A stretch of DNA of 64,000 nt from Hydrogenophaga sp. (lineage in GTDB: Bacteria; Pseudomonadota; Gammaproteobacteria; Burkholderiales; Burkholderiaceae_C), in the NCBI RefSeq assembly GCF_025699295.1, contig NZ_JAILWB010000006.1, forward strand, positions 62,001 to 126,000, in the 5' to 3' direction. Below are positions 47,971 through 64,000 of this stretch, piece by piece. How positions within the stretch are numbered: the first letter of the stretch is position 1; the number at the start of each line of letters is the position of its first letter. The translations under genes and the position numbers were made by a program. The notes under the pieces were generated by a model, which saw only the letters and a list, made by a program, of their open reading frames with translations, did not search any database and was not told the DNA's origin.

Positions 47971-48032
47971 CCCGTTCGGACTGAGCCTGTCGAAGTCCTC
48001 GCGAGCCCTTCGGCAGGCTCAGGGCGAACGGG
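47971..48032. repeat. REP dyad, family C, copy 3
   Basis: Arms CCCGTTCGGACTGAGCCTGT-CGAAG (47971-47995) and CTTCGGCAGGCTCAGGGCGA-ACGGG (48008-48032) face each other over a 12-nt loop. It is the same REP type as 11892-11966 and 62364-62424, here between the hydroxylase and dioxygenase genes. Confidence 0.75.
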
Positions 48033-48079
48033 ATCAGAGGTCTGCGAAAAAGCCATCGAAGCCCCACCCCGGAGACACC

Positions 48080-50855: not shown

Positions 50856-51527
50856 TCATGGGGCGTTGTCGGGCGCGGGGCCCAGCGTGCGGCAGTAGTC
50901 GGCCACGGCCGGGCGCGCGCGCGCGGGCCGGCGCGCTGCCACCGTGCCCACACTCAGGAAGCACAGGGCCTGTTCGCCCGCATGCAGACCGAAGCGCTGG
51001 CGCAGGGCGGTGGAGCCGAGCGCCTTGCCGCTGGTGAGCGCCGAGCCGTATCCCATGGCGGTGGCCATGAGCAGCATGTTCTGCACCGCGCACCCGGCCG
51101 AGAGGATGCGCTCGGACAGGTCCACCGCCGGGTCGCCGCGCTGGCCATCGACCACCACCAGCAGCAGCAAGGGCGCGCGGTGCGCCTTCTCTCGCGCCTG
51201 GTCCAGTTGCACGGGCGTGGCACCGGCATCGCGCTCGCGCAGGGCCTGGGCGAACACCTCGGCCAGCGAGCCGCGTTCGCTGCGGGGCACGATGACGAAG
51301 CGCCAGGGCAGCAGCTGCCCGTGATCGGGCGCGGCGGCGGCCGCGCCCAGCAAGACCTGCAGCTGGTCGGCGTCGGGCCCGGGCGCCAGCAGGCGTTTGG
51401 GCAGCACGGTCTGGCGCGCGTGGATCAGGTCGGCGGCCATGCGCGCGCATTCGCGTTCGACGGCATGGCCCCCCGTCTCACCCAGGTCGTCGGCGCGCGG
51501 TGGTCGGGCGTGCAGCGCCGTGTTCAT
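50856..51527 (-). CDS. Nitroreductase family protein
   Basis: 223 residues. FMN-dependent nitroreductase fold: ARQTVLPKRLLAPGPDADQL (about 37-56), AAAAPDHGQLLPWRFVIVP (about 62-80), the region ILSAGCAVQNMLLMATAMGY (about 141-160) and C-terminal FLSVGTVAARRPARARP. It resembles YdjA-type small nitroreductases using NAD(P)H. Its ATG overlaps the stop of the ribonucleotide reductase (ATGA), so the two are translationally coupled. Confidence 0.87.
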   Translation of the reverse strand: MNTALHARPPRADDLGETGGHAVERECARMAADLIHARQTVLPKRLLAPGPDADQLQVLLGAAAAAPDHGQLLPWRFVIVPRSERGSLAEVFAQALRERDAGATPVQLDQAREKAHRAPLLLLVVVDGQRGDPAVDLSERILSAGCAVQNMLLMATAMGYGSALTSGKALGSTALRQRFGLHAGEQALCFLSVGTVAARRPARARPAVADYCRTLGPAPDNAP

Positions 51528-54500
51528 CCGCAGACCCCGAGGTGGCCGCACTGCGTGCAGTAGTCGCAGCCGTCCTTGCGGATCACCGCGTGCGCGCCGC
51601 ACTCGCCGCACTTCTTGCCCGGCATCACGCCCGGCGTGAGCGCCACCGCCACGGGTGGCGCGGGCAGGGTTGTGGGCGTGACACCGGCACGCTGCGCGAT
51701 CAGGGTCTGCACCGCGTAGGCGATGGCGGCCACCACCGAGTCGTGCCACATCGGCACGTGCGTGCCGTCGGCCTTCTGGTGCGTGCCCATGCGCACCGGC
51801 CCCCGGTCCCACACCACCTTGCGCATGTCGCGCAGGGCGCGCTCCAGGAAACCACCGCGCGCGGCCAGCGAGAGCAACCGCATGCTGGACGACACCCACT
51901 GCTGCGACTCGCCGCTCTGCCCCACCGGCATGAAGAACTCGATCGCGCGTTCGACCGTGCCCGATCCATCCGCCGTGGGCACCGGCAAAAAGGACACCAG
52001 CAGGTACAGGGTCTGGTGGCCCTCCTGCGTCCAGTACTCGATCTTGTCGGCCACCGCCGGCAGCGCGCCGGGCGGGCGGCTCTCGATCACCGTGCGCATC
52101 GGGTCCACGGTGGCCACGCTCGCGGTCGTCTCGGGCGTGGGACCGGTGTCGAGCACCGAGCCCAGGACGGCGTTGGGCCGGTAGGTCGCCAGGCCCTTGA
52201 GCTGCGCGCGCCAGGCCTGACGGTACAGGTCCTTGAAGTCGTCGTAGGGGTAGTCGGCCGGCACGTTCACCGTCTTGGAGATCGCCGTGTCCACGAAGGG
52301 CTGCACCGCCTCCATCATGGCCAGGTGGTCGGCGGCCGGCATGGACAGCGCGCTCACGAAGTACTCGGGCAACTGCGCCATGTCGCCGCCAAGCTCGCGG
52401 TAGAGCCGCCAGGCGTGGTCTTCCACCGCGTAGTCGGTGGTGCTGCCGTCGGCCTCGCGCTTCTTGCGCCGGTACATCCAGGAGAACGGTGGCTCGATGC
52501 CGTTGGAGGCGTTGTCGGCAAACGCCAGGCTGACAGTGCCGGTGGGCGCGATCGACAGCAGGTGGCTGTTGCGGATACCGTGCGCGCGGATCGCGATGCG
52601 CAGCGCCTCGGGCAGGCGGCTGGCGAAAGTGCCTTCGGCCAGGTAGCCCTCGGCGTCGAACTTCGGGAACGCGCCCTTCTCCTGCGCCAGCGCCACCGAG
52701 GCCGCGTAGGCCGCGTCGCGCATGCGCTCGGCGATCCGCGCCGCCAGGGCGCGGCCCTCGGCGCGGTCGTAGCGCACGCACAGCATGGCCAGCGCATTGC
52801 CCATGCCGGTGAAGCCCACGCCGATGCGGCGCTTGGCCATGGCCTCCTCGCGCTGCTGCGGCAGCGGCCAGAAGGTCAGGTCCAGCACGTTGTCCAGCGC
52901 GCGCACCTGCAGCGCCACCACCTGTTCGAAGGCCTCGAAGTCGAAGCTGGGCAGGCCACCGAAGCCGAAGGGGTGGCGCACGAAACGCGGCAGGATCACC
53001 GGCCCGAGGTCGCAGCAGCCGTAGGGCGGCAATGGCTGCTCGCCACAGTTGTGCACCACGAGTCCGTTGGCGTCGAAGGCATGCACGTCGTCCACCGTCA
53101 CGTCGTACACGGTCTCTTCGCCATCGGGCTGCAAGCGATCGACAGTGGCCACGAAACGCTCACGGTTGGGCGTGCGCCGATAGTCGCTGAGTACCTGATC
53201 CAGACGAGCCGCCTTGTCGGAGTCCCTGAAGCCGATGCGCTCGGCGAACACTTGCAGGTTGTCGCCACTGATCACCAGTTCGTGCTGGGCCTGCGTCGGG
53301 TAGTCGGCCTCGCCGCCGCGACCGTTGGGCAGGTTGCGCAAGCCGGCGGGCCGCCGTTCCCGATACACCGTCGAGACAATGCCCAGGCGCAGCAACATGC
53401 GCTGCGCCGCCTGGAGCAGTGCGTCGTCGCTCTGCGAAAGACGCACACTCACCCCTTTTTCCTGCGCACCCTGCACGCTGCCGTCAGCATCGAACAGTCC
53501 TCCCAGCAAACCTTCGGCAAAGTCGGAAGAACGTTGTTCCATCGCGGGCGTGATGCCCTTCGCCCCGGGCGCCATGCCCAGTGAAAAAGCAAGATCGCGC
53601 AGCGGCGCGCTGGACAGGCGGGTCTCGCCCCGCCCAGCCAGTGGACGCTGAAATCCCCGAAAGTCGGCACGGTGCGCGAGGCTGGCCGCTGCCGCCTCCG
53701 CCGCTTCCACGATGCCTGCGGCACCCGTCGCGGCGAACGCCACAGTCTCCCGGCCCACGACGCGCAACTCGGGCGCCCAGACCGACAACACAGCCTTGTC
53801 GGCCTTGAGCGTGCCGTCGCCGATGAGCAATCCCAGCAGATAGCCTTCGTCGCGGGTTCCTGCACCGCCCCACCCTCGCAATGCCCGGTGATTGTTCAGC
53901 ACGATCTCGTCACCCGGCTTGAGACGGTTCGCCTCGGTCCAGTCCAGCTCCATGCTGTATCGGGTTTTCCGGGCCACACGCCGCACCCTATGGTCTGCGG
54001 TCAGGCGCAGAGTTTGGCCTTCGCGAGTCGTCAGGCGCCACACGGGCTTGTGTCCGGTGGCAAAAAACCCTTTGCTTCGCACCGCATGGCTGCGGCCATC
54101 AACGACGGCGTGGAACGGCTGTCCGACGAGTTCGCTCACGGTGCGGGGACCATGCTCGGTCAGAACCCAGGTGTCGGCCGTCACACACGGATTCGTCGCC
54201 TCGATGGTCTCGCAGTAGCGCAGGTTGTTGTCCTGCTGGATGGGGTCGAGGAACAGGATGCCGGGTTCGGCGAAGTCGTAGGTGGAGCGCATCACCGTGT
54301 CCCACAGCTCGCGCGCCGGCAGACTGCGGTAGACCCACAGGCCGTCGGCCCGCTGGTGCGCGCCCTGGGCCAGCAGCGCGGCGCCGGGGCGCGCGCGGTG
54401 CACCAGCTCCCAGGGCTGGTCGTCGGCCAGGGCCCGCATGAAGGCGTCGCTCACGCCCACCGAGACGTTGAAGTTGTTCCAGCGCCCGGGCGTGCGCTTG

Positions 54501-55078
54501 GCGGTGATGAACTCGAGCACGTCCGGGTGGTCGATGCGCAGCACGCCCATCTGCGCGCCGCGGCGCGCGCCCGCGCTCTCCACCGTGGCGCAGGACTGGT
54601 CGAACACGTTGATGTAGCTGCACGGACCCGAGGCCAGCGAGGCGGTGGCCTTCACCTGCGCGCCGCGCGGGCGGATGCGCGAGAAGTCGTAGCCCACGCC
54701 GCCGCCCCGGCGCATGGTCTCGGCGGCTTCGCGCAGGGCTTCGTAGATGCCGGGGTAGCCGCCGTCGTCCACGCCCTGGATGCAGTCGCCCACGGGCTGC
54801 ACGAAACAGTTGATCAGCGTGGCCTGTATCGCCGTGCCGGCCGCGCTCATGATGCGGCCGGCCCCGATGGCGCCGGCCTGCAGGTTGTCGAAGAAGCGCT
54901 GCTCCCACCGGGCGCGGTCGGCCTCGGGCTCCACCGAGGCCAGGACGCGCGCCACTCGGCGGTAGATGTCGGGCGCGCCGGTCTCGCCTTCCTTGAGGTA
55001 CTTCTCCTGCAGCACGTCCAGCGTGATGGGTTGCTGGCCGATGGCGGTGCTGGCGTTCTTGATCGCGTCGCGTTTCAT
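51524..55078 (-). CDS. nrdJ: Adenosylcobalamin-dependent (class II) ribonucleotide reductase interrupted by an intein
   Basis: 1184 codons: an 804-residue reductase split by a 380-residue intein (residues 298-677). Extein features: LINCFVQPVGDCIQGVDDG (redox Cys, about 88-106), GGGVGYDFSRIRPRG (125-139), the NPCGEQ motif reassembled by splicing with Cys678 as the thiyl-radical cysteine, SIAPTGTVSLAFADNASNGI (landmark), and a C-terminal zinc/redox tail with CGECGAH and CDYCTQCGHLGVCG. It makes dNTPs independently of oxygen using vitamin B12. The start is the ATG at 55076-55078; an upstream in-frame codon at 55132 overlaps the previous gene. It is 14 nt downstream of the nitronate monooxygenase gene. 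Confidence 0.93.
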   Translation of the reverse strand: MKRDAIKNASTAIGQQPITLDVLQEKYLKEGETGAPDIYRRVARVLASVEPEADRARWEQRFFDNLQAGAIGAGRIMSAAGTAIQATLINCFVQPVGDCIQGVDDGGYPGIYEALREAAETMRRGGGVGYDFSRIRPRGAQVKATASLASGPCSYINVFDQSCATVESAGARRGAQMGVLRIDHPDVLEFITAKRTPGRWNNFNVSVGVSDAFMRALADDQPWELVHRARPGAALLAQGAHQRADGLWVYRSLPARELWDTVMRSTYDFAEPGILFLDPIQQDNNLRYCETIEATNPCVTADTWVLTEHGPRTVSELVGQPFHAVVDGRSHAVRSKGFFATGHKPVWRLTTREGQTLRLTADHRVRRVARKTRYSMELDWTEANRLKPGDEIVLNNHRALRGWGGAGTRDEGYLLGLLIGDGTLKADKAVLSVWAPELRVVGRETVAFAATGAAGIVEAAEAAAASLAHRADFRGFQRPLAGRGETRLSSAPLRDLAFSLGMAPGAKGITPAMEQRSSDFAEGLLGGLFDADGSVQGAQEKGVSVRLSQSDDALLQAAQRMLLRLGIVSTVYRERRPAGLRNLPNGRGGEADYPTQAQHELVISGDNLQVFAERIGFRDSDKAARLDQVLSDYRRTPNRERFVATVDRLQPDGEETVYDVTVDDVHAFDANGLVVHNCGEQPLPPYGCCDLGPVILPRFVRHPFGFGGLPSFDFEAFEQVVALQVRALDNVLDLTFWPLPQQREEAMAKRRIGVGFTGMGNALAMLCVRYDRAEGRALAARIAERMRDAAYAASVALAQEKGAFPKFDAEGYLAEGTFASRLPEALRIAIRAHGIRNSHLLSIAPTGTVSLAFADNASNGIEPPFSWMYRRKKREADGSTTDYAVEDHAWRLYRELGGDMAQLPEYFVSALSMPAADHLAMMEAVQPFVDTAISKTVNVPADYPYDDFKDLYRQAWRAQLKGLATYRPNAVLGSVLDTGPTPETTASVATVDPMRTVIESRPPGALPAVADKIEYWTQEGHQTLYLLVSFLPVPTADGSGTVERAIEFFMPVGQSGESQQWVSSSMRLLSLAARGGFLERALRDMRKVVWDRGPVRMGTHQKADGTHVPMWHDSVVAAIAYAVQTLIAQRAGVTPTTLPAPPVAVALTPGVMPGKKCGECGAHAVIRKDGCDYCTQCGHLGVCG
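53048..54187 (-). other. LAGLIDADG-containing intein in nrdJ
   Basis: 380 codons read in frame. It begins CVTADTWVLTEHGPRTVSEL (block A, Cys1), has block B near LRLTADHRV (60-68), two LAGLIDADG-type motifs, GYLLGLLIGDGTL (115-127) and GLLGGLFDADGSV (226-238), block F YDVTVDDVHAFDANG (361-375) and ends GLVVHN before Cys+1 (class 1 Cys/His-Asn/Cys chemistry). It is inserted between NP and CGE of the active-site NPCGE motif, a known insertion site for inteins of this enzyme. Both endonuclease motifs keep their acidic residue, so homing activity is possible. Its GC content looks only slightly lower than that of the exteins. Confidence 0.93.
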
Positions 55079-55092
55079 GTTCGAGGATTCCT

Positions 55093-56325
55093 TCAGACGG
55101 CCAGGGCGGGCCGCACGCCGCCCAGAAGCCACATCATGAGGTCCTGCACCGGGCGGATCTGCTGGCCAAAGGGCAGCACACCCGCACCCCGGAAGAACAG
55201 GCCCTTCTGCGCGTCACCGTCGAGCGCATGGCCGAGTTGCTGGTCGATGCAGAACTGGCCCATCTCGCCCTTGCCGTCGCGCAGGCCGCAATGGGCCAGG
55301 CAGTCAAACGCCATGTTGCACTTTTTCTTCACATGCGCAACCGCCTTCAGTCGCGGCTCCAGGCGCAGGTATTTGTCCAGCCAGGGCGTGCGCACGGCCC
55401 GCGCGGGCAGGCCGGCCACGCTGACGAACTCCACCAGGTCTTCAGGTCCGGCCTCGGCCAGCACGCGCTTGAACCCGGCATCGGCGTCGCACTCCAGGGT
55501 GACGGCAAATGCCGTGCCCAGTTGCACGGCGCTGGCGCCCAGGCCCTGCAGGCGCAGGATGTCGTCGCGGCTGCCGATGCCGCCGGCGGCGATCAGCGGG
55601 ATCTCGCGCTCGATGCCGGCGGCCCGGAAGAATTCGAGCACCTGCGGGATCACGACCTCGAAGTCGAAGCGGGTGTCCCGCAGGTCGTCCACCTTCGCCG
55701 CCCCGAGATGGCCACCGGCCAGCCGCGGGTGCTCGATCACGATGGCATCGGGCAGGCGACCCTTCTTCTCCCACTTGCGCACCAGCAGTTGCACGCCACG
55801 CGCGTCCGACAGGATGGGGATGAGCGCGGCGTCCGGGTGGTCGCGCGCGAGCTCGGGCAGGTCCAGCGGCAGGCCGGCGCCCACCACCACCGCGTCGGCG
55901 CCGCTTTGCAGCGCCTGGCGCACGTACATCTCGTAGGCACTGAGCGCCTTCATCACGTTGACGGCGACCAGGCCACGCCCGTGCGCGATCGCCTTCGCGC
56001 CCCGGATCTCGCGGTCCAGCGCGATCAGGTTGGCCGCGTCGATGCGCTCCCGCGCGTCGGCTTCCTTGTCCAGGTGGCCGGTGCGCGCCATGAGGTCCGG
56101 GTGCAGGCGGCGCAGGTCGACCGAGGAGACCGTGCCCACGCCGCCCAGGCCGGCCACCGTGCCCGCCAGCGAGGCCGCCGATACCCCCACGCCCATGCCG
56201 CCCTGCACCACCGGCAGCAGCTCGCGGCCGCGCAGCCGCCAGGTGCGCAGGCCGCCCTGGCTCGCCAGGGCCCGCAGTTCGGCCGCCCGTGCCACCGCGT
56301 CGTCAGTCGCTGATGATTTGTCCAT
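55093..56325 (-). CDS. Nitronate monooxygenase (2-nitropropane dioxygenase-like)
   Basis: 410 residues from the ATG at 56323-56325 (GGAG 4 nt upstream); an in-frame ATG at 56337 is possible. FMN barrel: LPVVQGGMGVGVSAASLAG (about 37-55), GADAVVVGAGLP (about 145-156), PLIAAGGIGSRDDILRLQG (about 250-268) and ASAVQLGTAF (phosphate site). The C-terminal part has a Cys group, KKKCNMAFDCLAHCGLRDGK (about 340-360), not found in short NMOs, perhaps for a metal or cluster. Proposed role: oxidative removal of nitronates. The start lies inside the 3' end of the carbonic anhydrase gene (about 23-nt overlap). Confidence 0.85.
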   Translation of the reverse strand: MDKSSATDDAVARAAELRALASQGGLRTWRLRGRELLPVVQGGMGVGVSAASLAGTVAGLGGVGTVSSVDLRRLHPDLMARTGHLDKEADARERIDAANLIALDREIRGAKAIAHGRGLVAVNVMKALSAYEMYVRQALQSGADAVVVGAGLPLDLPELARDHPDAALIPILSDARGVQLLVRKWEKKGRLPDAIVIEHPRLAGGHLGAAKVDDLRDTRFDFEVVIPQVLEFFRAAGIEREIPLIAAGGIGSRDDILRLQGLGASAVQLGTAFAVTLECDADAGFKRVLAEAGPEDLVEFVSVAGLPARAVRTPWLDKYLRLEPRLKAVAHVKKKCNMAFDCLAHCGLRDGKGEMGQFCIDQQLGHALDGDAQKGLFFRGAGVLPFGQQIRPVQDLMMWLLGGVRPALAV

Positions 56326-57004
56326 CGTGCTCCACATAAGGTTGGTACGGCCCGGTGCCGCTGTTGGAGGCTAACGAGGCCGCGATGAAATCGCCTTGCT
56401 GTGCATCAAACACATGCACTTCCCCGTCCTCGATCACGTAGTGCCAGCCGTGCAGGGTGAGCGCGCCGGCCTCGACCTGGCGGCGCACCATGGGGTAACC
56501 CATCAGGCGCTCGAGCTGCAGCACCACCGCGCGCTGTTCGGTGCGGCGCAGGGATTCCGCACACGCCTGCACCGGCAACAGGGCTTCGTCCACCAGCTTG
56601 AGCCAGGCCGTGAGCGCCACCGCCTCTGCGGGTGCGCCGTCGTAGGCGGCGCGGATCGCGCCGCAGTGGCTGTGGCCACAGACCACGATGCGCTCCACCT
56701 GCAGGCTGAGCACGGCGAACTCGATCGCTGCCATCGTTCCGTGGAGCCCGTGCGACCGGTCATGAGGCGGCACCAGTGCACCGACGTTGCGCACGATGAA
56801 GAGTTCGCCCGGGCCGGCGCCGGTGAGCAGGTAGGGCACGAGGCGCGAGTCGGAACAGCCGATGAACAGCGTCTTGGGGTGCTGGCCCTCGGCCACCAGG
56901 TCCTGGAAGCGCTGCTGGTGGCGCGGGAAGTAGTCGGAGCGGAAATGCCGCAGGCGCAACAGCAGCTCGTCCGCTGCTGCTGCGTCGGCGGCCGGTCCGC
57001 TCAT
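56303..57004 (-). CDS. Beta-class carbonic anhydrase
   Basis: 233 residues. Zinc ligands and the dyad are in TLFIGCSDSRLVPYL (Cys about 50, Asp-Arg pair) and IVVCGHSHCGAIRAAYDG (His and Cys, about 106-123). FIVRNVGALVPP (about 69-80) is also typical. It interconverts CO2 and bicarbonate. Its ATG overlaps the prolyl isomerase stop (ATGA). A role in supplying bicarbonate or buffering the cytoplasm during nitrate respiration is inference from the operon. Confidence 0.92.
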   Translation of the reverse strand: MSGPAADAAAADELLLRLRHFRSDYFPRHQQRFQDLVAEGQHPKTLFIGCSDSRLVPYLLTGAGPGELFIVRNVGALVPPHDRSHGLHGTMAAIEFAVLSLQVERIVVCGHSHCGAIRAAYDGAPAEAVALTAWLKLVDEALLPVQACAESLRRTEQRAVVLQLERLMGYPMVRRQVEAGALTLHGWHYVIEDGEVHVFDAQQGDFIAASLASNSGTGPYQPYVEHDGQIISD

Positions 57005-57858
57005 TGAACGAGAGGCGTGTCGGCCCCCTCCAGCTCCACACCCTCCAGTTGTGCCTGGCCCACCAGCAGCTGCAGGTACTGGCGCAGCGCCGTGGCCTGC
57101 GACTGCAGGGCCAGCCGCGCACCGATCTGTGCCTGCAGTTCGGCGAAATCGGGCAGGCGGCCTTCCTGGCGCTCCAGCACCTCGACGATGTGCAGGCCGA
57201 AGCGGCTGTGCACCAGGCGCGGGTGCAGGCCCACAGCCTGGATGGCGTCGTTCTGCAGGAACAGGGCCCTGGCCAGCTCGGGCGCGCAGTCTTGCGGCGT
57301 GATCCAGCCGAGGTCGCCGCCCTGGGCGCTCGACGGGCAGTTGGAGAGTTCGGCCGCGAGCTGCGCGAAACGATCGGCCGGCACGCCCTGGCGCGAGAGT
57401 TCCAGCAGCGCGGCCTCGGCGCGCTGGGCCAGCGCGTTCACCGGCACGCCCGGCGTGACCGCGAACAGGATGTGCCGCACATGCAGCGCCTGGCCGACCA
57501 CGAAGCGCGGCTTGTGGGCCTCGTAGTGGCGCCGGCATTCCTCCGCGCCCGGCTCGGGCGAGTGCACCTCGGCTTCGAGCAAGGCCTCGATGGCCGCGCG
57601 CGTGTCGGCATCGGGCTCGGGCGCGCTCAGGCCGGTGAAGCGCGGCAGCAGGCCGGCGCGCACCGCCTGCTGGCGCAGCAGCTCGGCACAGGCGCGTTCG
57701 CGCAAGGTCTGCGCGTCCAGCATCTCGCCAGCTTCGTGCAGGGCGATGCCGTTGACGCTGGCGATCGCGGCCGGGGCCGCAGCGGCCTCTGTGCCTTTGC
57801 AGGCGCAGGCGCTGCTGCCGCAACCGGTGGAAGCAGAGGCGGAAAGGTCGTGATTCAT
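57001..57858 (-). CDS. Parvulin-type peptidyl-prolyl isomerase of the nar operon
   Basis: 285 residues. The parvulin domain is about 122-222: LHVRHILFAVTPG, then ELSNCPSSAQGGDLGWITPQD and HSRFGLHIVEVLERQEG. The N terminus is unusual, SASTGCGSSACACKGTEA, with three cysteines within eight residues (13, 18, 20) and no signal peptide. Similar PpiC/NifM-like proteins follow narI in several betaproteobacteria and pseudomonads and probably assist maturation of the nitrate reductase. It starts 27 nt after narI and overlaps the carbonic anhydrase gene. Confidence 0.87.
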   Translation of the reverse strand: MNHDLSASASTGCGSSACACKGTEAAAAPAAIASVNGIALHEAGEMLDAQTLRERACAELLRQQAVRAGLLPRFTGLSAPEPDADTRAAIEALLEAEVHSPEPGAEECRRHYEAHKPRFVVGQALHVRHILFAVTPGVPVNALAQRAEAALLELSRQGVPADRFAQLAAELSNCPSSAQGGDLGWITPQDCAPELARALFLQNDAIQAVGLHPRLVHSRFGLHIVEVLERQEGRLPDFAELQAQIGARLALQSQATALRQYLQLLVGQAQLEGVELEGADTPLVQ

Positions 57859-57885: not shown

Positions 57886-58599
57886 TCAGCGGGGCTTGTT
57901 CGGGCTTTGCGGCACACCCAGGCGGCGGCTGCGCACGACCTGGTAGGGCCGCACCAGGTAGGCCACGCTGGCGAAGCCGCTCCACACATGGACCAGGCGC
58001 GAAAACGGGAACAGCAGGAAGATCGTCATGCCCAGCACCAGGTGCACCTTGTAGGGCCAGTCCATGTCGACCAGTGCGGCCGCGTCGGGGCGGAAGGTGA
58101 CGATGCGCTGCGCCCACTCGGCCAGCACCAGCATGGCGCTGCCGTCGGCGTGCGCATACGAATACGGCAGGGTGATCAGGCCCAGCACCAGCTGCACCCA
58201 CAGGATGACGAGGATGGCGAGGTCGGTGCGGTGGCTGGTCAGGCGGATGCGCGGGTCGAAGATGCGCCGGTGCAGCAGCAAGGACAGGCCCACGAAGCAG
58301 ATCACGCCGGCGGTGCCGCCCGCATAGATGGCCAGGCGCTGCTTGACCGCGGCATCCATGAAGCCTTCGTAGAAGAAGTGCGGCGTGAGCAGGCCCACGA
58401 AATGGCCGAAGAACAGGAACAGGATGCCGATGTGGAACAGGTTGCTGCCCCAGCGCAGCTGGCCCCGGCGCAGCAGCTGCGAGGAATCGCTTTTCCAGGT
58501 GTACTGGTCGCGGTCGAAGCGGGCCAGGCTGCCCATGAGGAACACGGCCAGGCAGATGTAGGGATAGACGCCGAAGAGGAAGTGGTGCAGAGAGGTCAT
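57886..58599 (-). CDS. narI: Respiratory nitrate reductase gamma subunit
   Basis: 237 residues with five hydrophobic helices, starting LHHFLFGVYPYICLAVFLMG. Haem-ligand histidines are in LFHIGILFLFFGHFVGLLTPH (about 55-75; the NarI signature) and in VHLVLGMTIFLLFPFSRLVHVWSG (about 190-213). It takes electrons from quinol to NarH through two b haems. The ATG overlaps the narJ stop (ATGA). Confidence 0.95.
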   Translation of the reverse strand: MTSLHHFLFGVYPYICLAVFLMGSLARFDRDQYTWKSDSSQLLRRGQLRWGSNLFHIGILFLFFGHFVGLLTPHFFYEGFMDAAVKQRLAIYAGGTAGVICFVGLSLLLHRRIFDPRIRLTSHRTDLAILVILWVQLVLGLITLPYSYAHADGSAMLVLAEWAQRIVTFRPDAAALVDMDWPYKVHLVLGMTIFLLFPFSRLVHVWSGFASVAYLVRPYQVVRSRRLGVPQSPNKPR

Positions 58600-59309
58600 G
58601 CCTGCGCTCCTGGTGAAGGGGTAGGGTGGCGGCCGGGGGCCGCCTTCAGGATGCGGATCGGTTGTGGCTGACCGGGTTTGGCCTGGCCGTCGGTGGAACA
58701 GCCGCCGAACACCTCGGGCTCGGCCCAGCTCTCGTCGATGCCGGGGTCGGCGGCCACCGGCACGGGCTCGGCCTTCTCGCCCGCGAGCTCGAGCACCGCG
58801 GCCAGTGCGCTGGCATACGGACTCTGGCGCTTGAGCAGCGCGCTGAAGATGGCGCGCACGATGTGCGCGCTCTCGGCCAGGAATTCACGCGCCACGGGGG
58901 CGGGCTGGGTGGAGGCGAACTCCAGCAGCACGCTGAGGTGGTCGGGCAGCTCGGCCGCATCGAGGCAGAGGCCCGCCTTCTCGTAGGTCTGGATCAGGTC
59001 GATCATGGCCGGACCCCGGTCGCGCGAATCGCCGAGCACGTGCTCGAACAGGTGCAGCGCGGTGCTGCGCCCGCGGTCGAACAGCTCGACGTAGTCGGCT
59101 TCGACGTCCAGCGCCGGCTGCTGGCTCAGATGCACCAGCAGCGCATCGAGCTCGACCAGGCGTGCGGGCGCCAAGGCGGCCTCGGCGCGCAGCGCGTCGC
59201 GCAGTTCGGCGGCGTGCTCGCGCAACGCGGTGGTGGGGTAGCGCAGCAGGTGGGCGAGCACACGCAGCGTGTGCACGGCGGGCTTTTGAGCGGATGAGAA
59301 GAACGCCAT
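58596..59309 (-). CDS. narJ: Nitrate reductase molybdenum cofactor assembly chaperone
   Basis: 237 residues from the ATG at 59307-59309, 1 nt after the narH stop. VLAHLLRYPTTALREHAAEL (about 18-37), YVELFDRGRSTALHLFEHVLG (about 72-92; the NarJ hallmark) and GLCLDAAELPDHLSVLLEF (about 115-133). The tail after 180 is proline/alanine-rich. It binds the NarG N terminus and allows cofactor insertion before membrane anchoring. Confidence 0.93.
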   Translation of the reverse strand: MAFFSSAQKPAVHTLRVLAHLLRYPTTALREHAAELRDALRAEAALAPARLVELDALLVHLSQQPALDVEADYVELFDRGRSTALHLFEHVLGDSRDRGPAMIDLIQTYEKAGLCLDAAELPDHLSVLLEFASTQPAPVAREFLAESAHIVRAIFSALLKRQSPYASALAAVLELAGEKAEPVPVAADPGIDESWAEPEVFGGCSTDGQAKPGQPQPIRILKAAPGRHPTPSPGAQA

Positions 59310-59310
59310 G

Positions 59311-60843
59311 TCAGACCCCCGCCTTGATCGGGATGGTGCGCTTCTTCTCGCTGCCGAACAGACTCGTTTCCGTTTGTCCTTCCGAGCAGCCGTTGCCGAA
59401 GCTGAAGCCGCAGCCACCCTTGATGTTGAAGGTGTTCTCGGCGTACTCGCGGTGGGTGGTGGGAATCACGAAGCGGTCCTCGTAGTTGGCGATCGCCATG
59501 GTGCGGTACATGTCCTCGACCTCGCGCACGCTCAGGCTCACCTGGTCAAGCACGTCCTGGTTGACCACGCCGTCCACGTGCTTGGCGCGCTGGTAGCTGC
59601 GCATGGCCAGCATGCGTTCGAGCGCGCGCACCACGGGGATCGTGTCGCCCGCGGTCAGCAGGTTGGCGAGGTACTTCACCGGGATGCGCAGCTGGCTCAC
59701 GTCCGGGATCTCGCCGTTGCTGCCCACCTGCCCGGCATTGGCCGCGGCGGTGATGGGCGAGAGCGGCGGCACGTACCAGACCATGGGCAGCGTGCGGTAC
59801 TCGGGGTGCAGCGGCAGCGCCACCTTCCAGTCCACCGCCATCTTGTAGACCGGGCTGTGGCGCGCGGCCTCCAGCCAGTTGTCGGGGATGCCGTCGGCGC
59901 GCGCCTGTGCGATCACCGCCGGGTCGTGCGGATCCAGGAAGAGGTCGATCTGCGCCTTGTAGAGGTCGATCTCGTTGGGCACGCTGGCGGCCTCCTGGAT
60001 GCGGTCGGCGTCGTACAGCAGCACGCCCAGGTAGCGGATGCGGCCCACGCAGGTTTCGCTGCACACCGTGGGCTGGCCGGCCTCGATGCGCGGGTAGCAG
60101 AAGATGCACTTCTCGGCCTTGCCGCTTTTCCAGTTGTAGTAGATCTTCTTGTACGGGCAGCCGCTCACGCACATGCGCCAGCCGCGGCACTTGTCCTGGT
60201 CGATCAGCACGATGCCGTCTTCCTCGCGCTTGTAGATCGATCCCGAGGGGCAACTCGCCACGCAGGCAGGGTTGAGGCAGTGCTCGCACAGGCGAGGCAG
60301 GTACATCATGAAGGTGTTCTCGAACTCCCCCACCATGGCCTTCTGCGCGGCCTCGAAGCCGTCGAAGTTGGCGTCCTTGCTGCGCTTGGAAAACTCGCCG
60401 CCCAGGATCTCCTCCCAGTTCGGGCCCCACTCGATCTTCTCCATGCGCTGGCCGGTGATGAGGCTGCGCGGGCGCGCGGTGGGCGCGTGCTTCATCTCCG
60501 GGGCCGACTGCAGGTGGTCGTAGTCGAAGGTGAAGGGCTCGTAGTAGTCGTCGATCTCCGGCAGGTGCGGGTTGGCGAAGATCTTCATCAGCAGCTGCCA
60601 CTTGCCGCCCTGCCGGGGCACGATGCTGCCATCGGCCTTGCGGGTCCAGCCGCCGTGCCACTTCTCCTGGTTCTCCCATTCCTTGGGGTAGCCGATGCCG
60701 GGCTTGGTCTCGACGTTGTTGAACCAGGCGTATTCCACGCCGGGCCGGCTGGTCCAGACGTTCTTGCAGGTGACGGAACAGGTGTGGCAGCCGATGCACT
60801 TGTCCAGGTTGAGCACCATGCCGATTTGCGCGCGGATCTTCAT
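59311..60843 (-). CDS. narH: Respiratory nitrate reductase beta subunit
   Basis: 510 residues. Four cluster motifs: CIGCHTCSVTCKNVW (about 17-31), CEHCLNPACVASCPSG (about 187-202), CRGWRMCVSGCPYKKIY (about 217-233, with Trp in place of a cysteine as expected for the 3Fe-4S site) and CIFCYPRIEAGQPTVCSETC (about 244-263). It relays electrons from NarI to NarG. The ATG overlaps the narG stop (ATGA). Confidence 0.97.
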   Translation of the reverse strand: MKIRAQIGMVLNLDKCIGCHTCSVTCKNVWTSRPGVEYAWFNNVETKPGIGYPKEWENQEKWHGGWTRKADGSIVPRQGGKWQLLMKIFANPHLPEIDDYYEPFTFDYDHLQSAPEMKHAPTARPRSLITGQRMEKIEWGPNWEEILGGEFSKRSKDANFDGFEAAQKAMVGEFENTFMMYLPRLCEHCLNPACVASCPSGSIYKREEDGIVLIDQDKCRGWRMCVSGCPYKKIYYNWKSGKAEKCIFCYPRIEAGQPTVCSETCVGRIRYLGVLLYDADRIQEAASVPNEIDLYKAQIDLFLDPHDPAVIAQARADGIPDNWLEAARHSPVYKMAVDWKVALPLHPEYRTLPMVWYVPPLSPITAAANAGQVGSNGEIPDVSQLRIPVKYLANLLTAGDTIPVVRALERMLAMRSYQRAKHVDGVVNQDVLDQVSLSVREVEDMYRTMAIANYEDRFVIPTTHREYAENTFNIKGGCGFSFGNGCSEGQTETSLFGSEKKRTIPIKAGV

Positions 60844-63800
60844 GGGTTTTCTCCCTGGGATTGATAGGCTCGAATGAGGTGGTCGTCGGCCGGTGTGTCG
60901 AGCCAGTCCACCTTGTCCATCTTGCGCACCACGACAAACTCGTCGCGGTTGGTGCCGATGGTTCCGTAGTAGTTGAAGCCGTAGCTGAGCTGCGCGTAGC
61001 CGCCGATCATGTGGGTCGGCTTGAGCACGATGCGCGTGACCGAGTTGTGGATGCCGCCGCGCACGCCGGTGATCTCCGAGCCCGGGGTGTTGATGATCTT
61101 TTCCTGTGAGTGGTACATCATCACCATGCCCGGGTTGACGCGCTGGCTGACCACCGCGCGCGCGGCCACCGCGCCGTTGATGTTGAACAGCTCGACCCAG
61201 TCGTTGTCCTGGATGCCCGCGCTTTTCGCGTCGTCTTCGCTGAGCCAGACCACGGTGCCGCCGCGGTTAAGCGTGAGCATCATCAGGTTGTCGCTGTACG
61301 TCGAGTGGATGCCCCACTTCTGGTGCGGCGTGATGAAGTTCAGCTGGATCTCTTTGTGGCCGTTGGGCTTGATGTTGTGGATGCCCTCGGTGGTCTTCAG
61401 GTCCACCGGCGGTCGGTAGCTGCCCAGGCCTTCACCGAAGGCGATCATCCAGGGGTGGTCCTGGTAGAACTGCTGGCGCCCGGTGAGGGTGCGCCACGGA
61501 ATCAGTTCGTGCACGTTGGTGTAGCCGGCGTTGTAGCTCACCGTCTCGCTCTCGATGCCGCTCCAGGTCGGGCTGCTGATGATCTTGCGCGGCTGCGCCT
61601 GGATGTCGCGGAAGCGGATCTTCTCGTCCTCGCGGTACAAGGCCAGGTGGGTGTGGTCGCGCCCGGTCTGCTTGCCCAGCGCCTGCCAGGCCTTCACCGC
61701 CACGTGGCCGTTGGTCTCGGGCGCGAGCTGCAGGATCACCTCGCAGGCGTCGATGTCGCTCACGATCTTCGGCATGCCCTTGCTCACGCCTTCGTCCTGC
61801 GTGGTGCCGTTGAGCTGGCCGAGCTGCTCGACCTCGGTGCCGGTCTTCCACGCGATGCCCTTGCCGCCGTTGCCGATCCTGTCCATCAGCGGGCCCAGCG
61901 CGGTGAAGCGCTTGAACACATTGGGGTAGTCGCGCTCGACCACGGTGATCTGCGGCGCGGTCTTTCCCGGGATGAGTTCGCAGTGGCCTTTGCGCCACTC
62001 CTTCACGTCGAAAGGCTGCGCGAGTTCCCCCGGCGTGTCGTGCATGATGGGCGTGAGCACCACCTCCTTCTCCACCCCCAGGTGGCCCACGCAGACCTCA
62101 CTGAAGGCCTGGGCGAATCCCTTGTAGATCTCCCAGTCGCTGCGGCTCTGCCACACCGGGTCCACCGCCGCCGACAGCGGGTGGATGAAGGGGTGCATGT
62201 CGCTGGTGTTGAGGTCGTTCTTCTCGTACCAGCTCGCGGTGGGCAGCACGATGTCCGAGTACAGGCAGGTGGTGCTCATGCGGAAGTCGAGCGTGACCAG
62301 CAGATCGAGCTTGCCCTGCGGCGCGTGCTCGTGCCAGACCACCTCTTCGGGAAACACCCCCGATCGGGCTGAGCTTGTCGAAGCCCCTTCTCGCGCATGC
62401 CCTTCGACAGGCTCAGGGCGAACGGAGTCCGAGCCCAGGTCCTTGCCCTGCACGCCGTTCTCGGTGCCCAGCAGGTGCTTGCAGAAGTACTCGTGGCCCT
62501 TGCCGCTGGAGCCCAGCAGGTTGCTGCGCCACACGAACATGTTGCGCGGCCAGTTCTGCGGCGCGTCGGGGTCCTCGCAGCTCATGGCCAGCGTGCCGTC
62601 CTTGAGCGCGCGCACCACGTAGTCTTTCGTGTCCAGGCCGGCCGCAGTGGCGTCCTGCACCACCTGCAGCGGGTTGGTCTTGAGCTGCGGCGCGCTGGGC
62701 AGCCAGCCCATGCGCTCGGCGCGCACGTTGAAGTCGATCATGCTGCCGCCGAACGCGGCCTTGTCGGCCAGCGGGCTCACGATCTCTTCCATGCCGAGCT
62801 TTTCGTAGCGCCACTGGTCGGTATGGGCGTAGAAGAAGCTGGTGCTGTTCATCTGGCGCGGTGGGCGGATCCAGTCGAGCGCGAAGGCCAGCGCGGTCCA
62901 GCCCGTTTGCGGGCGCAGTTTTTCCTGGCCCACGTAGTGCGCCCAGCCGCCACCGCTCTGGCCGATGCAGCCGCACATCATCAGCAGGTTGATCACACCA
63001 CGGTAGTTCATGTCGGCGTGGTACCAGTGATTCATGGCGGCACCGATGATCACCATGGACTTGCCGTGCGTCTTGTCGGCGTTGTCGGCGAACTGCTGCG
63101 CCACGGTGATGACCTGGTCGCGCGGCACGCCGGTGATGCTCTCCTGCCAGGCGGGCGTGTAGGCGGCGTTGTCGTCGAAGTCCTTCGCGCCACTGCCCAA
63201 CCCGCGGTCGATCCCGTACTGCGCGACCTGCAGGTCGAACACGGTGGCCACCAGGGCGTGGCGTTCCTCGCCGGCCTTGCCCAGGCGCAGGCGCACGGCC
63301 GGCACGCGGGCGTGGTTGATGGCGCCGTTCTGCGCATTGGCGGTGAAGTGCGGCGCGGCGTTGCCACCGAAGTACGGGAAGGCCACGTCCACCACCTGGT
63401 GGTCCTGCTCCCCGTCCTCGATTACCGAGAGCTTGAGCCTGACCTCGGTGTCGCTGCGGGCCTCCCTGGCCTCCAGGTTCCACTTGCCTTCGTCGGCGCG
63501 TCCGGCCTCGCCCCAGCGAAAGCCGATGGATCCGTTGGGCAGCACGGCCCGTCCGCCGGTGTCGAAGGCCACGGTCTTCCACTCGGGGTTGTTCTTCTGG
63601 CCGAGCTGGCCGTTGAAGTCGCTGGCGCGCAGGTAGCGGTCGGGCACCAGGGTCTTCGTGCCGTCGGCGAGCACATGCTCTTTCAGCATCACCAGCAACG
63701 GCAGGTCGGTGTAGCGGCGCGCGTAGTCGTCGAAGTAGCTGCTTCTGGGCTTTCCGCCATCGGGGAAATAGAAGTTCTTCAGCACCACATGGCCCATGGC

Positions 63801-64000
63801 CATGGCGAGCGCGGCGTCGGTGCCCTGCTTGGGGTGCAGCCAGAGGTCGGAGAGCTTGGCGACCTCGGAGTAGTCGGGCGTGACGGCCACTGTCTTGGCA
63901 CCCTTGTAGCGCACCTCGGTGAAGAAGTGCGCGTCGGGCGTGCGCGTCTGCGGCACGTTGGAGCCCCAGGCGATGATGTACGAGCTGTTGTACCAGTCGG
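60840..64000 (-). CDS. narG: Respiratory nitrate reductase alpha subunit (5' part cut by window)
   Basis: 1052 C-terminal residues are present; about 190 to 200 N-terminal residues, including the FeS0 site, lie beyond the right edge. The frame continues to base 64000 with WYNSSYIIAWGSNVPQTRTP. Further NarG blocks: SDLWLHPKQGTDAALAMAMG, MMCGCIGQSGGGWAHYVGQE, KLDLLVTLDFRMSTTCLYSD and the molybdopterin region GVRGGIHNSVTRIVLKPTH near the end. It reduces nitrate to nitrite in the cytoplasm. A REP element is inserted in frame (62364-62424), giving an extra segment with SVRPEPVEG and STSSARSG. Confidence 0.96.
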   Translation of the reverse strand, partial: DWYNSSYIIAWGSNVPQTRTPDAHFFTEVRYKGAKTVAVTPDYSEVAKLSDLWLHPKQGTDAALAMAMGHVVLKNFYFPDGGKPRSSYFDDYARRYTDLPLLVMLKEHVLADGTKTLVPDRYLRASDFNGQLGQKNNPEWKTVAFDTGGRAVLPNGSIGFRWGEAGRADEGKWNLEAREARSDTEVRLKLSVIEDGEQDHQVVDVAFPYFGGNAAPHFTANAQNGAINHARVPAVRLRLGKAGEERHALVATVFDLQVAQYGIDRGLGSGAKDFDDNAAYTPAWQESITGVPRDQVITVAQQFADNADKTHGKSMVIIGAAMNHWYHADMNYRGVINLLMMCGCIGQSGGGWAHYVGQEKLRPQTGWTALAFALDWIRPPRQMNSTSFFYAHTDQWRYEKLGMEEIVSPLADKAAFGGSMIDFNVRAERMGWLPSAPQLKTNPLQVVQDATAAGLDTKDYVVRALKDGTLAMSCEDPDAPQNWPRNMFVWRSNLLGSSGKGHEYFCKHLLGTENGVQGKDLGSDSVRPEPVEGHAREGASTSSARSGVFPEEVVWHEHAPQGKLDLLVTLDFRMSTTCLYSDIVLPTASWYEKNDLNTSDMHPFIHPLSAAVDPVWQSRSDWEIYKGFAQAFSEVCVGHLGVEKEVVLTPIMHDTPGELAQPFDVKEWRKGHCELIPGKTAPQITVVERDYPNVFKRFTALGPLMDRIGNGGKGIAWKTGTEVEQLGQLNGTTQDEGVSKGMPKIVSDIDACEVILQLAPETNGHVAVKAWQALGKQTGRDHTHLALYREDEKIRFRDIQAQPRKIISSPTWSGIESETVSYNAGYTNVHELIPWRTLTGRQQFYQDHPWMIAFGEGLGSYRPPVDLKTTEGIHNIKPNGHKEIQLNFITPHQKWGIHSTYSDNLMMLTLNRGGTVVWLSEDDAKSAGIQDNDWVELFNINGAVAARAVVSQRVNPGMVMMYHSQEKIINTPGSEITGVRGGIHNSVTRIVLKPTHMIGGYAQLSYGFNYYGTIGTNRDEFVVVRKMDKVDWLDTPADDHLIRAYQSQGENP
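62364..62424. repeat. REP dyad, family C, copy inside narG
   Basis: Arms TCGGGCTGAGCTTGTCGAAG (62364-62383) and CTTCGACAGGCTCAGGGCGA-ACG (62402-62424) face each other over 18 nt. The element matches the intergenic copies at 11892-11966 and 47971-48032 but lies within the narG coding sequence without breaking the frame. The RPEPVEG/STSSARSG peptide is the well-known translation of this REP type. Confidence 0.85.

Follow-up and report, generated by a model that had tools for sequence, protein, structure and literature searches.

A LAGLIDADG intein at the thiyl-radical cysteine of a class II ribonucleotide reductase in Hydrogenophaga

Inteins of ribonucleotide reductases

Inteins of the kind considered here are already in print. 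The rir1-b allele of ribonucleotide reductase (RNR) is represented by 55 bacterial sequences in Table 2 of PMC4071816, and Table 3 of the same paper names Acidovorax sp. CF316 and A. avenae. The second published case is NrdJa of Azotobacter chroococcum, in which a LAGLIDADG_3 intein occupies residues 321–690; it is not in the A. vinelandii orthologue, and a few beta- and gammaproteobacteria are considered potential hosts of it (PMC4465626). An RNR intein is noted in Methylococcus (PMC517821), and the RNR inteins of phages are treated in PMC3653736. In Aquifex aeolicus, an intein with a LAGLIDADG endonuclease separates active-site residues of the R2 protein and splices when expressed (PMC8772380). 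No paper joining an intein and Hydrogenophaga was found in the literature searched.

The element described here lies in nrdJ of a Hydrogenophaga sp., within a window of 64,000 nucleotides (the whole stretch of DNA that was analysed). The element is real and probably active; it belongs, as an ordinary case, to a documented intein family whose insertion site is a known hot spot. The possible link to rir1-b runs through L047, a locus of Acidovorax sp. CF316 tied to PMC4071816 by organism name, whose intein occupies the same NP^C site in a different host species and is 73% identical to the window's. The A. chroococcum element is likened by its published description, being also a LAGLIDADG_3 intein in a class II RNR (PMC4465626). 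The A. aeolicus intein, unlike the window's, belongs to a class I R2 subunit and sits between two metal ligands (PMC8772380). The original prediction had called the insertion site known from other inteins, and both the family and its patchy distribution are indeed published (PMC4071816, PMC4465626).

Anatomy of the intein and its insertion site

The nrdJ frame extends from 51524 to 55132 on the minus strand, and its residues 316–695 (window 53048–54187) form an open insert of 380 codons. Around the insert Pfam places RNR domains, among them the Ribonuc_red_lgC barrel (3e-114). NCBIfam gives NrdJ_Z at 1e-159, above its cut-off, and the NrdJ profile TIGR02504 scores 532.9 bits against a cut-off of 399.95, which assigns the enzyme to the class II RNRs. 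Within the insert Pfam finds LAGLIDADG_3 (E 1.2e-23) and Intein_splicing (1.4e-11), and intein_Cterm of NCBIfam also scores. The insert begins with CVTADTW and ends with VVHN, between ATNP and CGEQPLPP (junctions NP^C...HN^CGEQ). It has the Cys1 nucleophile, the block B TxxH (T63, H66) and the terminal Asn followed by Cys at +1 that characterize class 1 inteins. Two motifs with catalytic acidic residues, GLLIGDGT and GLFDADGS, mark a LAGLIDADG homing endonuclease. The intein has a GC3 of 0.76, and each of the two exteins one of 0.94.

The likely nrdJ start is ATG 55078, with GAAGGAAT upstream, and the exteins counted from there sum to 804 residues, in agreement with the spliced length originally predicted. 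The same prediction had placed a 380-residue block with splicing motifs at both ends in the reductase frame, and its coordinates, 53048–54187, prove exact. Its reading as a full-length LAGLIDADG intein is upheld jointly by the Pfam domains, the two LAGLIDADG motifs and the predicted fold; the frame is unbroken in this interval, as the whole-genome copy of nrdJ has no stop inside.

Table 1. Features of the nrdJ locus and its surroundings (window coordinates).
Feature	Position	Strand	Basis
narG, narH, narJ, narI, upstream of nrdJ	57886..63956	-	gene list, NCBIfam; context only
NifM/PpiC-like, carbonic-anhydrase-like and FabK-like genes, between nar and nrdJ	55093..57858	-	below NCBIfam cut-offs; context only
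N-extein of NrdJ (297 residues, start at ATG 55078), last residues ...EATNP	54188..55078	-	frame reading, Pfam
Full-length class 1 intein of 380 residues (Cys1 through His379-Asn380)	53048..54187	-	junctions, Pfam, alignment, predicted fold
Cys1, first splicing nucleophile	54185..54187	-	kept in 84/84 HN-type inteins, window included
Block B TADH	53990..54001	-	T63 and H66 kept in 84/84
First LAGLIDADG motif GLLIGDGT	53810..53833	-	D124 kept in 84/84
Pfam LAGLIDADG_3 stretch	53231..53518	-	precursor residues 539–634
Second LAGLIDADG motif GLFDADGS	53477..53500	-	D233 and D235 kept in 84/84
Terminal His379-Asn380, Asn cyclisation site	53048..53053	-	junction reading, alignment
NrdJ C-extein, starts CGEQPLPPYGCC, cysteine-rich CxxC...CxxC end; 507 residues and stop	51524..53047	-	frame reading
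Cys+1, second splicing nucleophile; thiyl-radical cysteine once spliced	53045..53047	-	aligns with C322 of 1xje

A phmmer comparison with the PDB pairs the residue that follows the intein with Cys322 of T. maritima NrdJ (1xje), within a PCGE motif. We take C322 to be the thiyl-radical residue of that enzyme. The conserved finger-loop cysteine is the site of the thiyl radical in all characterised RNRs (PMC9531940). Since the +1 residue is by alignment this finger-loop cysteine, splicing has to rebuild the catalytic cysteine. The intein thus lies where it had been predicted, directly before the thiyl-radical cysteine of NPCGE, and the further expectation that no active reductase would form without splicing follows from the insertion site and class II RNR chemistry. 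If the intein were lost imprecisely, the enzyme would be ruined, and the site would therefore act as a safe harbour.

Very probably the element is a class 1 intein of the RIR1/NrdJ thiyl-cysteine site, full-length and bifunctional in being capable of both homing and self-splicing. Intein splicing proceeds through an N–S shift, transesterification, Asn cyclisation and an S–N shift. The life cycle of the window's intein would comprise the following steps. (i) The LAGLIDADG endonuclease would cut intein-free nrdJ alleles at the codons of the active-site finger loop. (ii) The cut gene would be repaired from an intein-bearing copy, completing homing. (iii) In the precursor protein, an N–S shift at Cys1 would be followed by transesterification to Cys+1. 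(iv) Asn380 would cyclise with the assistance of His379, and an S–N shift would follow. (v) The product would be an 804-residue NrdJ, in which the restored NPCGE cysteine would carry the thiyl radical. We infer that splicing and cleavage are active in the host, and that splicing is constitutive rather than regulatory.

Conservation was read from a search of genome contigs that yielded 237 stretches encoding a relative, of which the best 80 were kept. Among 119 loci examined, 90 match the intein. Removal of four that end in Gly-Gln (GQ type) and of two repeats (L008, L013) leaves 84 that share the His-Asn end (HN type), the window's included. In all 84, drawn from the best 80 of 237 relatives and others, Cys1, T63, H66, D124, D233, D235, H379 and N380 are kept, and every locus has TNP before the intein and Cys after it (Pro at −1, Cys at +1). 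A proline at −1 slows the first splicing step in model inteins. Against 13 relatives, dN/dS over the whole intein is 0.087–0.22, which indicates purifying selection on the window's intein; the exteins are likewise under purifying selection.

These data bear on two alternatives. HN-type inteins range from 352 to 417 residues, and the 352-residue version in one relative (L050) would suit a decaying element in which splicing is kept and the endonuclease is dead. Such decay is unlikely in the window's copy, where both catalytic motifs are intact and conserved, selection acts over the whole intein and horizontal moves are evident from the phylogeny. Nothing found speaks for an assembly error or a non-splicing pseudogene frame; the probability of either is close to nil, as the same element is found at the same codon in scores of other assemblies and the frame is open, with exteins and intein both under purifying selection.

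The structure predicted for the bifunctional intein is in keeping with its motifs. An AlphaFold model, made with an alignment of 39 of the 84 inteins, has a pLDDT of 91.2 and a pTM of 0.91. Its best Foldseek matches in the PDB are the TliVMA, PI-SceI, PhoVMA and PI-PfuI inteins, the five best reaching TM-scores of 0.57–0.62 of the query at an rmsd of at least 6; I-DmoI is matched as well. The predicted fold matches that of inteins with homing endonucleases. In the model, the intein shares with TliVMA, PI-SceI and PI-PfuI (PDB 7qsu, 1vde and 1dq3) a splicing domain and a LAGLIDADG endonuclease fold, but those inteins reside in other host proteins and are only 14–18% identical to it.

Distribution and mobility

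Three states of the insertion site are found within the genus. Of 35 same-genus genomes, three have an HN intein (G018, G029, G030), four a GQ intein (G001, G008, G024, G033) and 16 an empty site. Two of the remainder are fragmentary at nrdJ (G019, G020), and the other ten, which include incomplete assemblies, have class I-like matches only or none. Over 270 residues before and 250 after the insertion site, the window's exteins are 93–96% identical to those of three of the four GQ hosts and of the four nearest empty hosts; the fourth GQ host (L014) stands at 82–83%. The same nrdJ codon is empty, HN-filled or GQ-filled among same-genus hosts with 93–96% identical NrdJ exteins, so that gain, loss and replacement can be counted directly. 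The locus offers a clean, well-sampled case of intein homing, and knowledge of inteins is unchanged by it.

The GQ-type inteins (L010, L011, L012 and L014 in the same genus; L152–L159) fill the identical NP^C codon of nrdJ, a case of allele replacement or competition at one site. They share the site NP^C(G/A)E, and the four read fully have two LAGLIDADG motifs. They differ from the window's intein in ending with Gly-Gln instead of His-Asn and are about 30% identical to it, although three of them reside in hosts whose exteins share 93–95% identity with those of the window.

Wider draws show how far each type extends. Across the phylum an intein match occurs in 21 of 398 genomes, with at least 53% identity in 18, the window's own included. 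At the level of the order a GQ-type match occurs in 40 of 399 genomes, with at least 59% identity in nine. Of the 29 loci that the two draws supplied, among them the window and some genes already met above, a junction pattern reads 28, an agreement that on the flanks holds by construction because the pattern demands NP^C and C.E. One of these loci (L165) ends in Ser-Asn; the others whose junctions were read end in His-Asn or Gly-Gln.

Movement was assessed on an extein tree of 44 rows. These comprise 22 HN hosts (of 84, taken from those nearest the window), four GQ hosts and 18 empty ones, with five paralogue rows and two duplicates left out. Resolution of the tree is only partial, 11 of its 41 inner branches being starred. 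It needs 13 state changes, against a mean of 17.4 after shuffling; a value as low arose in 1 of 200 shuffles. In the tree of the 22 HN inteins, the window groups with L037, L038 and L039 (100/99). A single acquisition followed by vertical descent in these four hosts is rejected on the extein tree with a p-AU of 5.2e-6, a value weakened by the choice of the group after the trees were seen. A single acquisition by the window and L037 alone is not rejected (p-AU 0.48). Between the window and L037 (Hydrogenophaga sp. IBVHS1), dS is 0.33–0.34 in the exteins and 1.28 in the intein, a comparison that is indicative rather than strict because codon composition differs. Between the window and L039, the exteins are 77% identical and the inteins 85%. 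The conflict between the intein tree and the host-gene tree shows that the element moves horizontally.

A phage or plasmid carrier was considered. Each collection gave one weak match: among the phages a stretch of 26% identity in an unannotated record, among the plasmids an intein of 32% identity from Miltoncostaea. The two collections thus show no carrier of the window's intein. The plasmid locus (L171:764-4642, Miltoncostaea oceani plasmid NZ_CP064357.1) is a class Ib large-subunit gene flanked by nrdI and nrdF; its intein sits at the equivalent cysteine (NL^C...TGN^CSEI). A candidate third allele, L160 (G764), was dropped, as it looks like the large subunit of a class I RNR interrupted by two inteins. 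Of these, one lies just after the catalytic cysteine, one residue further on (NLC^...N^TEI).

Other reductases, nitrate-respiration genes and the proposed conditional splicing

NrdB is present in the host genome, with a putative class I large subunit beside it. NrdD gave no match in this genome (0/1); the same search matches in 6 of 14 control genomes. A second, intein-free class II reductase (L117, G000:C41:161000-180999) is split into two pieces separated by about 15 kb (G000:C41:162589-163722 and 178904-179530), which could be an assembly fault. By eye, the genes between the pieces look like a CoA-ligase/thiolase/acyl-CoA-dehydrogenase cluster. Since no NrdD was found and the second NrdJ is split, it is probable that dNTP synthesis independent of oxygen relies on splicing, and maturation of the window's NrdJ is probably needed for growth without oxygen. 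This need is a dependence, not regulation.

The original prediction had placed nrdJ inside a nitrate-respiration operon. The genes narG-narH-narJ-narI do lie upstream on the same strand (table 1), but nrdJ is not between nar genes. Twenty gene contexts were fetched for comparison, the empty same-genus ones covering 14 of the 16 empty genomes. nar linkage of nrdJ is found in the one HN context (1/1), in all four GQ contexts and in 8 of the 14 empty ones; it is absent in the one context from another family (L139). Among 80 HN loci, at least two nar genes occur in the flank of four (L037, L038, L041, L083), the flank being at most 5 kb and sometimes cut. Linkage in eight of 14 empty contexts and in few intein-bearing loci means that it does not follow the intein.

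It had also been proposed that splicing could act as a switch on anaerobic dNTP synthesis, sensitive to redox state or metals and tied to nitrate respiration. In such a switch, Cys1 and Cys+1 would be the targets of oxygen, oxidants or metals that hold splicing back, anoxia would release it, and NrdJ would mature only during nitrate respiration. Inhibition by oxidants or zinc is known for other Cys inteins (PMC7360933), the nar genes do lie upstream, and the spliced NrdJ is the only intact oxygen-independent RNR seen in the genome. The switch is nevertheless very improbable. The same linkage occurs where there is no intein, class II RNRs function irrespective of oxygen (PMC5704485), and a selfish element accounts well for the gain, absence and replacement at the site. 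The sole cysteine of the window's intein is Cys1, 71 of the 84 HN-type inteins having more, and position −3 holds Thr, so that the CPC-type disulfide trap is absent. No sequence feature specific to redox- or metal-conditional splicing was seen in the window's intein, and a regulatory role as a switch is unsupported. Equally little credence attaches to the related notion that splicing at the thiyl cysteine gates all oxygen-independent dNTP synthesis and is delayed by oxidation of Cys1/Cys+1 or by NO from denitrification.

Two minor observations concern narG. The gene is listed from a GTG at 63956, and since the profile match begins at position 256, its N-terminal part lies outside the listed frame. 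A dispersed repeat stands in frame inside narG (window ~62360–62433), with a similar copy, 85% identical, at 48000–48039. It adds about 22 residues and is not in four of five relatives read; the fifth (L125) carries another insert at this point.
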